The position numbers and the translations under genes are program-made. DNA of 64,000 nt. Source: Sphaerobacteraceae bacterium. GTDB taxonomy: Bacteria > Chloroflexota > Chloroflexia > Thermomicrobiales > Thermomicrobiaceae. The DNA lies in contig REEK01000112.1 in the NCBI GenBank assembly GCA_007695115.1, positions 1-64,000 on the forward strand, given 5' to 3'. This document shows, piece after piece, positions 37,392 to 40,327 of this stretch. The notes under the pieces are model-generated. The model saw only the letters and a program-made list of their open reading frames with translations. It had not been told where the DNA came from and searched no databases. Position 1 is the stretch's first letter; the number at the start of each line of letters is the position of its first letter.

Positions 37392-39875
37392 CTAGCCGAC
37401 GACGATGTTCAGGATTCGACCAGGCACGTAGATCACCTTGCGAACTTGCTTGTCGCCGATACCGTCCTGAACCCGGCTGCTCGCCATCGCCATTGCCAAG
37501 ACCGTCTCTTCGTCGGCATCCACGGCGGTCTCGAGGCGATCCCGGACTTTTCCGTTGATCTGCACCGCCAGTTCGACCGTTGCCTCGACCGTCAACCCCG
37601 GATCGAAGGATGGCCAGGCCTGCTGGTGAACACTGAACTCGCCACCCAGGCGATGCCAGAGTTCTTCGGCCAGATGCGGAGCACTCGGGGCCAGCATCAA
37701 TGCCAGCGACTCGAGCGATTCCCGCCAGGCGGGCGAGCTCGTGGCTCCGCGCTCACGCAGCTGGTAGAGCTCGTTCACAAACTCCATCAAACGGGCCAGC
37801 ATCGTGTTGAACTCGAAATCGCCGATGTCATCTCCGACGACCTGAATTGCCTTATTCAGCGCCTTGCGGAGTTGAAGATCGACGTCCGGGTCGACGTCGT
37901 CATCAGCTGGCAGGTCCGCAGTCTCATCGGTGATCGCCCAGGCTCGGCGGACGAACCGTTCGATCCCGGAAATGCCTCGAGAATTCCAGGGGCCGCCCTG
38001 ATCCCAGGGAGCAATGAACATCAGGTACAGGCGGACGACATCGGCACCCTGCTCGCTGACCAGTTCATCCGGGTCAACCACGTTCCCACGGCTCTTGGAC
38101 ATCTTCTCGTTGTCCTCACCGAGGATAATCCCCTGGTTGTAGAGGCGGGTGAATGGTTCGTCGATCGTCAGCAAGCCGATGTCCCGCATCGCTTTGGCGA
38201 AAAATCGCGCGTAGAGCAGGTGCATCGTGGCGTGTTCGATCCCGCCGGTGTACTGATCAACCGGCAGCCATTCTGCGGCCTTGTCCGGATCAACCGGCCC
38301 GTCAACATAGTGCGGATTAAGGAACCGATACTGATACCAGGATGAATCAACGAACGTATCCAGCGTATCGGTTTCACGCTTCGCGGCAGCACCACAACTC
38401 GGGCATATCGTGTTGACGAAGCCTTCGTGGGTCTTGAGCGGCGATTCCCCGGTCGGCTTGAATTCGGCATCTTCCGGCAGAACAACCGGCAGATCTTCCT
38501 CTGGCACCGGGACCGTTCCGCAGGAATCGCAGTAGATGATCGGGATCGGCGTACCCCAGTAGCGCTGGCGAGATACCAGCCAGTCCCGGAATCGATAATT
38601 GATCTCACCCGAGCCGCGTCCCTGCTCGTCCAGCCATTCGATGACTTGGGAAACGGCCTCGCCATCGGCAGTCGGGGTGCCGTCGAAGTGAGCCGAATTC
38701 ACCATCACGCCTTCGCCGGCGTAGGCTTCGGTAATCGTTTCGTCGGAGAGATCAGAATCTTCTGGACGAATCACGACGCGCACTGGCAGATCGAACTTCC
38801 GGGCGAACTCGAAGTCACGCTCATCGTGGGCAGGCACCGCCATGATGGCACCAGTGCCGTATCCCATCAGCACGTAATCAGCGATCCAGATCGGAACTCG
38901 CTCACCGTTCACCGGGTTCACTGCGTGGGCTCCAATGAACACACCGGTCTTTTCATTCTCCGTGTTTGTTCGCTGAATCTCGGTCTGTCGCCGGGCCTGC
39001 CGGACATAGGCTTCGACATCGTCACGCTGTTCGTCGGTCGTCAATTTTTCGACCAGCGGATGCTCCGGAGCCAGCACCATGAAGGTGGCTCCCCACAGCG
39101 TGTCGGGGCGTGTCGTGAAGACCTCGATCGAGTCATCCTGCTCACTGGTGAAGACAACCCGGGCACCTTCCGAACGGCCGATCCAGTTGGTCTGCATCGT
39201 GACAACGCGATCGGGCCAGTCGATCTTGCTGAAATCGAGCAGTTCTTCGGCGTATTTCGTAATCCGGAAGAACCATTGGGTCAGGTCCCGACGGGAGACT
39301 TCCGAATGACAGCGCTCACACTCTCCCTCGACAACTTGCTCGTTCGCCAGCACGGTCTGGCACTTCGGACACCACCAGACCGGAGCCTTGGCCTGATAGG
39401 CCAGCCCGGCCTTCATGAATTGCAGGAAGAGCCACTGGTTCCACTGGTAGTAATCGGGAAGACAGGTGATGACCTCACGGTCCCAGTCGAACATTGCGCC
39501 CATCGAGCGCATCTGTTTCCGCATGTTCTCGATGTTGGCCATTGTCCAGGTATGGGGATGGATGTTTCGCTGGATCGCCGCATTCTCCGCTGGCAGACCG
39601 AAAGCGTCGAAACCCATCGGAAAGAGGACGTTGTAGCCGCACATGCGCTTGAACCTGGCAGCGGAATCGGACGGAGCCATTGCATACCAGTGTCCGATGT
39701 GCAGATCCCCTGAGGGATAGGGATACATCGTCAGGGCATACCACTTGGGGCGTTCGGAGTGATCCGGCGTTTTCGCGAGCTGTGCTTCTTCCCAGGCTTT
39801 CTGCCATTTGGCTTCAACCTGGCTGGCATTGTATTGACGCGCCCGAGCGCGAGATTGCGTTTCAGTCGTTGCCAC
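37392..39875 (-). CDS. leuS: Leucyl-tRNA synthetase
   Basis: LeuS charges tRNA-Leu. The 827-residue protein has the HIGH motif in SGDLHIGHWYAM, the CP1 editing domain, and KMSKS in NEKMSKSRGNV. The GTG at 39875 is chosen because GGAGGA lies 7 nt upstream. The frame stays open through the leader into the tRNA gene but that part is regulatory RNA. A T-box leader with an embedded tRNA-Ala precedes it. udk and an aminotransferase follow. Confidence 0.97.
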   Translation of the reverse strand: MATTETQSRARARQYNASQVEAKWQKAWEEAQLAKTPDHSERPKWYALTMYPYPSGDLHIGHWYAMAPSDSAARFKRMCGYNVLFPMGFDAFGLPAENAAIQRNIHPHTWTMANIENMRKQMRSMGAMFDWDREVITCLPDYYQWNQWLFLQFMKAGLAYQAKAPVWWCPKCQTVLANEQVVEGECERCHSEVSRRDLTQWFFRITKYAEELLDFSKIDWPDRVVTMQTNWIGRSEGARVVFTSEQDDSIEVFTTRPDTLWGATFMVLAPEHPLVEKLTTDEQRDDVEAYVRQARRQTEIQRTNTENEKTGVFIGAHAVNPVNGERVPIWIADYVLMGYGTGAIMAVPAHDERDFEFARKFDLPVRVVIRPEDSDLSDETITEAYAGEGVMVNSAHFDGTPTADGEAVSQVIEWLDEQGRGSGEINYRFRDWLVSRQRYWGTPIPIIYCDSCGTVPVPEEDLPVVLPEDAEFKPTGESPLKTHEGFVNTICPSCGAAAKRETDTLDTFVDSSWYQYRFLNPHYVDGPVDPDKAAEWLPVDQYTGGIEHATMHLLYARFFAKAMRDIGLLTIDEPFTRLYNQGIILGEDNEKMSKSRGNVVDPDELVSEQGADVVRLYLMFIAPWDQGGPWNSRGISGIERFVRRAWAITDETADLPADDDVDPDVDLQLRKALNKAIQVVGDDIGDFEFNTMLARLMEFVNELYQLRERGATSSPAWRESLESLALMLAPSAPHLAEELWHRLGGEFSVHQQAWPSFDPGLTVEATVELAVQINGKVRDRLETAVDADEETVLAMAMASSRVQDGIGDKQVRKVIYVPGRILNIVVG

Positions 39876-39929: not shown

Positions 39930-39966
39930 AAAAAAGCCCTCCATCCCCCTGGCAGGGACGAAAGGC
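39930..39966 (-). terminator. Regulated terminator of the leuS T-box
   Basis: The arm from 39966 (GCCTTTCGTCCC) pairs with GGGGATGGAGGGC over 13 bp with several G-U pairs and a 5-nt loop, followed by six T at 39935-39930. It overlaps the region that would pair in the antiterminator, as expected of a T-box switch. Confidence 0.85.
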
Positions 39967-40010
39967 CAGTTCCGCGGTACCACCCTGGTTGGTAGACCTG
40001 ATTCTAAACG

Positions 40011-40083
40011 TGGAGCTGAGGGGACTCGAACCCCTGACCCCAACACTGCCAGTGTTGTGCTCTCCCAGCTGAGCTACAGCCCC
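40011..40083 (-). tRNA. tRNA-Ala (GGC)
   Basis: A full 73-nt cloverleaf is visible. The acceptor stem GGGGCTG/CAGCTCC includes the G3:U70 wobble that identifies alanine tRNAs. D arm GCTC-AGCTGGGA-GAGC, anticodon arm CAACA-CTGGCAG-TGTTG with anticodon GGC, T arm AGGGG-TTCGAGT-CCCCT and discriminator A73 are all standard. CCA is not encoded (next bases CGT). It lies inside the leuS T-box leader on the same strand, 5 nt after one Stem III arm and 13 nt before the other. Confidence 0.97.
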
Positions 40084-40298
40084 GTGGTGTCTACCCACTC
40101 GGTAACCCGATATCGGAGGTTATCCGGTTTCGGCTATCTATTTCACCGAAACAGCTCCCGGACGAGTTCGCTCGTCATTTCCCGGTGTTGCCTTGCACCA
40201 GCCGGCAACTCTCTGGATCGAGATGACGATCTACTACTTCCGATCATCGCCAGAATATGCGGTTCACTGGCTAGCGATCACGCCGACCAGCAAGCAAG

Positions 40299-40327
40299 AT
40301 GTTAGCACAGCGACGTGGTGCAGTCAA
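40299..40327 (-). promoter_or_regulatory. Promoter of the tRNA-Ala / leuS leader
   Basis: On the minus strand TTGACT (40327-40322), a 17-nt spacer and TAACAT (40304-40299) form a near-consensus housekeeping promoter. The start near 40292 places it about 35 nt before T-box Stem I and 210 nt before the tRNA. It is the only good promoter seen, so tRNA-Ala and leuS probably share it. Confidence 0.75.

Follow-up and report, generated by a model that had tools for sequence, protein, structure and literature searches.

The window analysed here is a 64,000-nucleotide stretch of a contig from a Sphaerobacteraceae bacterium (REEK01000112.1), and all of the features described at the locus lie on its minus strand. 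The leuS gene, coding for leucyl-tRNA synthetase, occupies positions 37392-39875, with a GTG start at 39875. It is preceded by a leader which contains, in order, a promoter, Stem I of a T-box with a CUC specifier, Stem II, the 5' arm of Stem III, a tRNA-Ala(GGC) gene, the 3' arm of Stem III, an antiterminator and a terminator. The sigma-70-like promoter (TTGACT-17-TAACAT, 40299-40327) was located by a consensus scan with a shuffle control. Alignment to the Rfam T-box family RF00230 places Stem I at 40155-40256, the Leu specifier codon CUC at 40164-40166 and the segment between Stem I and the RRRxG motif at 40101-40154. The RRRxG motif itself (GAGUG, 40096-40100), which precedes Stem III, and the AA motif on its 3' side (39989-39990) were assigned from the sequence and the published motif, and the Stem III arms GGUAGAC (40089-40095) and GUCUACC (39991-39997) from the alignment and covariation. 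Between the arms lies the tRNA-Ala(GGC) gene (40011-40083; ARAGORN and RF00005), with G3-U70 and discriminator base A73 but no encoded CCA. The antiterminator, AGGGUGGUACCGCG...CGUCCCU, extends over 39954-39986 in the RF00230 alignment, with its UGGU bulge at 39982-39979, and a terminator scan identified an intrinsic terminator at 39930-39967, composed of a 14-bp stem and a T-run. All of the elements listed in the original prediction were thereby recovered at their minus-strand places.

The covariance match to RF00230 extends from 40256 to 39951 and covers the full model (1-219), Stem I included; it scores 109.5 bits, where the cut-off is 93 (E value 2.7e-23). A 91-nt insert in this match sits exactly in the Stem III loop, and within the insert RF00005 matches at 40083-40011 with 64.8 bits, in agreement with the ARAGORN call of tRNA-Ala(GGC). 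In the DNA, the arms GGTAGAC (40095-40089) and GTCTACC (39997-39991) are perfect complements. The arrangement GAGUG-GGUAGAC...GUCUACC-AA corresponds to RRRxG-Stem III-AA, the motif that has been reported for the T-box discriminator (PMC7583486, PMC7778990). The UGGU bulge, both antiterminator segments (AGGGUGGUACCGCG and CGUCCCU) and the overlapping 14-bp terminator are all present, the CUC in the specifier loop agrees with the leuS gene downstream, and a tRNA-Leu(GAG) that matches this specifier is encoded in the genome. The composite is thereby confirmed at the level of sequence: a complete Leu T-box with a tRNA-Ala(GGC) gene nested in its Stem III loop.

Between positions 39850 and 40700, the sigma-70 consensus scan returned a single promoter-like site, that at 40327-40299 (shuffle mean, 0.2). 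The same scan gave no candidate for a separate tRNA promoter inside the leader, and an independent promoter of this kind was rejected. The single terminator-like site in the scanned region is on the same strand as the promoter-like site, and the pair brackets both the tRNA and the T-box.

Pairing of the Stem III arms across the tRNA was assessed in aligned loci, in which the arms were anchored by sequence motifs and not by complementarity. In 119 distinct unselected rows, 558 of 714 positions are paired, whereas 2000 shuffles gave 393 on average and never more than 438, and the AA stands at its fixed place in 103 of the 119. A smaller set of 76 rows was drawn from the first 100, and several clearly mis-anchored rows were dropped by eye in the process, which favours the result; here 85.3% of the cells are paired versus 60.0 +/- 1.5% when shuffled, both sides have changed in 184 cells versus 61.8, and pairing falls to 44% or 31% when the arms are slid by one column. 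This excess of pairing and covariation over the shuffles indicates that the arms pair across the tRNA. Minimum free energy folding of the window's discriminator and tRNA did not yield Stem III together with the cloverleaf, and among the 119 loci it recovered both Stem III and the acceptor stem of the tRNA in only 45; the structural support therefore rests on covariation.

The distribution of the arrangement was assessed by scanning GTDB contigs with a pattern composed of a T-arm, 24-54 nt and GGGTGGNACCGCG, with the tRNA in the orientation of the T-box. At least 120 loci matched, at least 105 of which carry tRNA-Ala(GGC) just 5' of a T-box antiterminator. Among the matches listed, leuS lies downstream on the same strand in 100 of the 100 nested loci with enough sequence, and in 85 of these it is within 300 nt; in the other five nested loci listed, the stored sequence stops 63-1139 nt further on, with no LeuS match. 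By their labels, the nested loci listed comprise at least 56 Bacillota, at least 32 Chloroflexota, at least 10 Thermomicrobiota and at least 2 Armatimonadota, and the few remaining loci carry other taxon labels and may be misassigned metagenome bins. An ARAGORN tRNA is absent from 14 of the (at least) 120 loci listed. Among the matches listed, in the T-box orientation, no nested tRNA other than tRNA-Ala(GGC) was found before a confirmed T-box. A tRNA-Arg in Blastococcus (L195) was considered as a nested case and rejected: it does not precede leuS, and a T-box is not established there.

The frequency of nesting differs among the groups sampled. In the class of Syntrophomonas wolfei the pattern matches 43 of 63 genomes, and in an even sample of the window's own phylum 32 of 400, with tRNA-Ala(GGC) in 22 of the 30 retrieved. 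Sixty leuS loci surveyed from each of two phyla included 13 and 11 nested ones, respectively, and three more (L328, L349 and L358) in which the nested tRNA and T-box are followed by an apparent extra stretch or gene between the terminator and leuS. Most of the Thermomicrobiales among 61 genomes searched have tRNA-Ala(GGC) about 15-60 nt before the T-box motif, and the LeuS of the window is 98.7% identical to that of a 'Thermomicrobiaceae bacterium' bin (L147). Six distant nested loci, from Desulfofundulus, S. wolfei, Symbiobacterium, Ktedonobacter and two more, align to RF00230 over its full length at 93.7-119.7 bits, with Stem III inserts of 76-98 nt and, as in the window, a CUC specifier; the specifier evidence consists of these seven alignments. 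The search of relatives for a tRNA inside a T-box, which the original prediction had called for, has thus shown that nesting recurs in more than 100 genomes and at least two phyla, cultured bacteria such as S. wolfei and Desulfofundulus included. Chance or an assembly artefact is rejected on the grounds of more than 100 independent genomes, isolates among them, and the covarying arms.

The nested tRNAs look like real alanine tRNAs, as judged by features outside the selection of the search pattern: all 98 distinct nested tRNAs combine A73 and a full acceptor stem with G3-U70, the principal identity element for alanine. The tRNA of the window likewise has a cloverleaf, a GGC anticodon and both of these identity features. 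It is the only copy of tRNA-Ala(GGC) among the 43 tRNA genes found in this genome (98.5% complete), so that a functional role is likely, and the commonest Ala codon in six genes of the window is GCC. In 12 other nested genomes, an anticodon-arm pattern gave one match each in six and no match in the remaining six. Neither tRNA-Ala(TGC) nor tRNA-Ile(GAT) was found in the assembly; both are usually located in the rRNA operon, and an rRNA operon that carries them may be missing from this assembly.

Other T-boxes of this genome precede leuA, trpE, thrS, pheS, ileS, metX-like and lysX-like genes (named by protein resemblance). They belong to the same family as the nested leuS T-box but are without an internal tRNA, and their Stem III loops are short, except for an insert in that of trpE. 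The leuA T-box shares the CUC specifier as well, and its Stem III loop is of the ordinary short kind; nesting is therefore not needed for Leu sensing. This bears on the proposal that the folded tRNA is a structural cap which the discriminator needs. Short linkers between Stem III and the tRNA, seen in many loci, would suit such a role, but the leuA T-box does without a cap, and the survey of leuS loci showed that leuS T-boxes with no nested tRNA are common, so we regard the proposal as very improbable. As a separate observation, the T-box of the trpE-like gene (L004 1501-1836, C180:100092-100427) has about 57 additional nt in its Stem III loop, which do not form a tRNA.

The reading that we favour, and consider likely, is that of a Leu T-box whose Stem III carries a functional tRNA-Ala(GGC) gene as its cap and whose terminated leader is a pre-tRNA. 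It is built on the anatomy, conservation, covariation and tRNA identity features observed, from which expression, processing and timing are predicted. One promoter would give one RNA, along which the polymerase would produce, in turn, Stems I and II (which would read tRNA-Leu via CUC), the whole tRNA-Ala, the 3' arm of Stem III and the antiterminator/terminator region. Binding of uncharged tRNA-Leu would let the antiterminator form and leuS be transcribed, whereas with charged tRNA-Leu the transcript would end at the terminator. In both outcomes the tRNA-Ala would be complete before the terminator, and both products would contain it. RNase P would then cut at the 5' end of the tRNA and 3' processing enzymes at the other, with CCA added afterwards, such that the terminated leader, normally waste, would serve as a pre-tRNA. 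Stem III presumably tolerates a tRNA because the flanking purines and the base of the helix matter to the discriminator while the loop is free. The claim that the tRNA is made regardless of leuS is borne out as to position, one promoter standing before both genes and the terminator after the tRNA; because of this position, transcription of the tRNA is expected in either outcome of the switch, and that of leuS only upon antitermination. The switch decision would fall about 75 nt after completion of the tRNA; sensing would probably precede cleavage, with the two functions separated in time.

The original prediction also suggested that processing and sensing compete, since an RNase P cut at 40084/40083 would leave Stem I and the antiterminator on separate pieces. 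The leuS response would then be set or limited by how fast tRNA-Ala matures, with the Stem III leader-trailer helix delaying processing until the decision has been taken. The cleavage site does lie between the specifier domain and the discriminator, and the Stem III pairing across the tRNA is conserved. Furthermore, 67 of the 98 nested tRNAs have U at position -1, the nucleotide reported to suit RNase P best. RNase P is slowed where the leader is paired close to the cleavage site, and the E. coli enzyme also where the leader pairs with the tRNA 3' end (PMC9433436); competition is conceivable because Stem III is such a pairing, 5 nt away here. On the other hand, that distance also means that Stem III is not continuous with the acceptor stem; the polymerase would need a few seconds at most to reach the decision point; a conserved Stem III is expected in any T-box; and one family has both nested and non-nested leuS T-boxes. 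We think competition unlikely. A broader version, that of a widespread two-function RNA in which tRNA-Ala maturation and the leucine-sensing decision are mechanistically linked, strikes us as equally doubtful: Stem III would be at once part of the discriminator and a leader-trailer helix that sets the timing of RNase P and of 3' processing, and tRNA-Ala processing and LeuRS expression would tune each other.

The association of the tRNA with the T-box is not fixed, since in some relatives the tRNA lies upstream of Stem I or the T-box is missing. Three genera (g3, g4 and g6) of the same family as the window have an intact leuS T-box with tRNA-Ala(GGC) upstream of its Stem I, and in three genomes (G034, G011 and G016) this tRNA was not found within 900 nt upstream of leuS. 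Elsewhere tRNA-Ala(GGC) precedes leuS with no recognised T-box (e.g., L311, L312 and L350) or precedes an intact T-box (L353, L354 and L362, as well as three Thermomicrobiales genera). The loci in which the tRNA adjoins the T-box show that neither of the two requires nesting. Clearly separate tRNA and T-box units in relatives had been named in advance as evidence against the nested interpretation; such units do occur in some genera, but they show separability and do not undo the nesting in the window. A strict coupling of tRNA-Ala supply to LeuRS expression is disfavoured both by the close relatives with an upstream tRNA and by the leuA T-box. Some Chloroflexota (L353, L354 and L362, and also L143, L145, L171 and L174) have a tRNA-Ala(CGC) on the 5' side of the leuS T-box, with tRNA-Ala(GGC) either adjoining that tRNA or nested. 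At one further locus (L417), CTCGTCCCTAG and a terminator, with no Stem I, lie between tRNA-Ala(GGC) and leuS, and CTCGTCCCTAG looks like what is left of a T-box terminator.

In a LeuS tree (175 rows) whose two main clades divide Bacillota from Chloroflexota for the most part, nesting occurs in both clades and is clustered, with 27 changes versus a shuffled mean of 56.7; the 'no T-box' class on this tree is motif-based and may include diverged T-boxes. The sameness of tRNA, loop, orientation and gene points, in our view, to a single origin followed by many losses, or to joint spread of the leader and leuS, and speaks against numerous separate insertions, although the tree by itself cannot separate loss from gain. 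The same sameness across the deep LeuS split weighs against a neutral account, in which an old tRNA-Ala(GGC)-leuS pair became nested by chance and was kept only because a single tRNA gene cannot be lost, with no gain from the shared transcript. So does the fact that no other nested tRNA occurs among the matches listed, even though the pattern fits many tRNAs. The loci in which tRNA-Ala(GGC) precedes leuS without a recognised T-box, or stands upstream of an intact one, speak for it, and it is compatible with the transcript anatomy of the reading that we favour, from which it differs only on benefit; we hold it to be possible but somewhat improbable.

Like an ordinary Leu T-box (RF00230) before leuS, the locus contains Stem I with CUC, Stem II, RRRxG-Stem III-AA, a UGGU bulge, an antiterminator, a terminator and a cognate synthetase gene; unlike it, there is a complete gene for a non-cognate tRNA, tRNA-Ala, in the loop of Stem III. 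Transcripts shared by tRNA genes and mRNAs are familiar from E. coli metY-nusA and the tufB operon. There, as is predicted here, the tRNA is released by processing from an mRNA-containing transcript, but it lies beside reading frames, whereas here it lies within a ligand-sensing switch, before the terminator of that switch. Of known composites, GOLLD RNA comes closest; in some cases it carries tRNAs in a linker region (PMC12286853). In both, a tRNA is embedded in a large structured noncoding RNA, but GOLLD RNA is phage-borne and of unknown function, with no riboswitch and no tRNA-sensing. A description of a tRNA gene inside a T-box was not found in the literature searched, which did not extend to the main comparative surveys (Vitreschak 2008, Gutierrez-Preciado 2009); within that literature, the earlier statement that no such T-box had been described agrees with our own search. 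Judged from its sequence, in which all of the testable defining features are present, the locus is a T-box of a new architectural variant. As far as we searched, no riboswitch has been described that senses one tRNA while carrying the gene of another, and one RNA appears to be both a leucine switch and the precursor of an alanine tRNA. The arrangement shows that a large folded RNA can be accommodated in Stem III of a T-box, and it suggests that a terminated riboswitch leader need not be waste. It also offers a clean system for asking how a single transcript accommodates both tRNA processing and co-transcriptional sensing. Annotation pipelines for tRNAs and for T-boxes can each catch their own half of such a locus and miss the composite.

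Two other leaders of this genome have neighbouring RNA elements. A tRNA-Val(GAC) lies about 67 nt 5' of Stem I, on the same strand, at the T-box of the thrS-like gene (L006, C98:9367-9757), and is another non-cognate tRNA that adjoins a synthetase T-box. Before the metX-like gene (L005 1339-1752, C22), the T-box (81.3 bits) has a SAM riboswitch (84.2 bits) about 60 nt ahead of it, in an apparent tandem.
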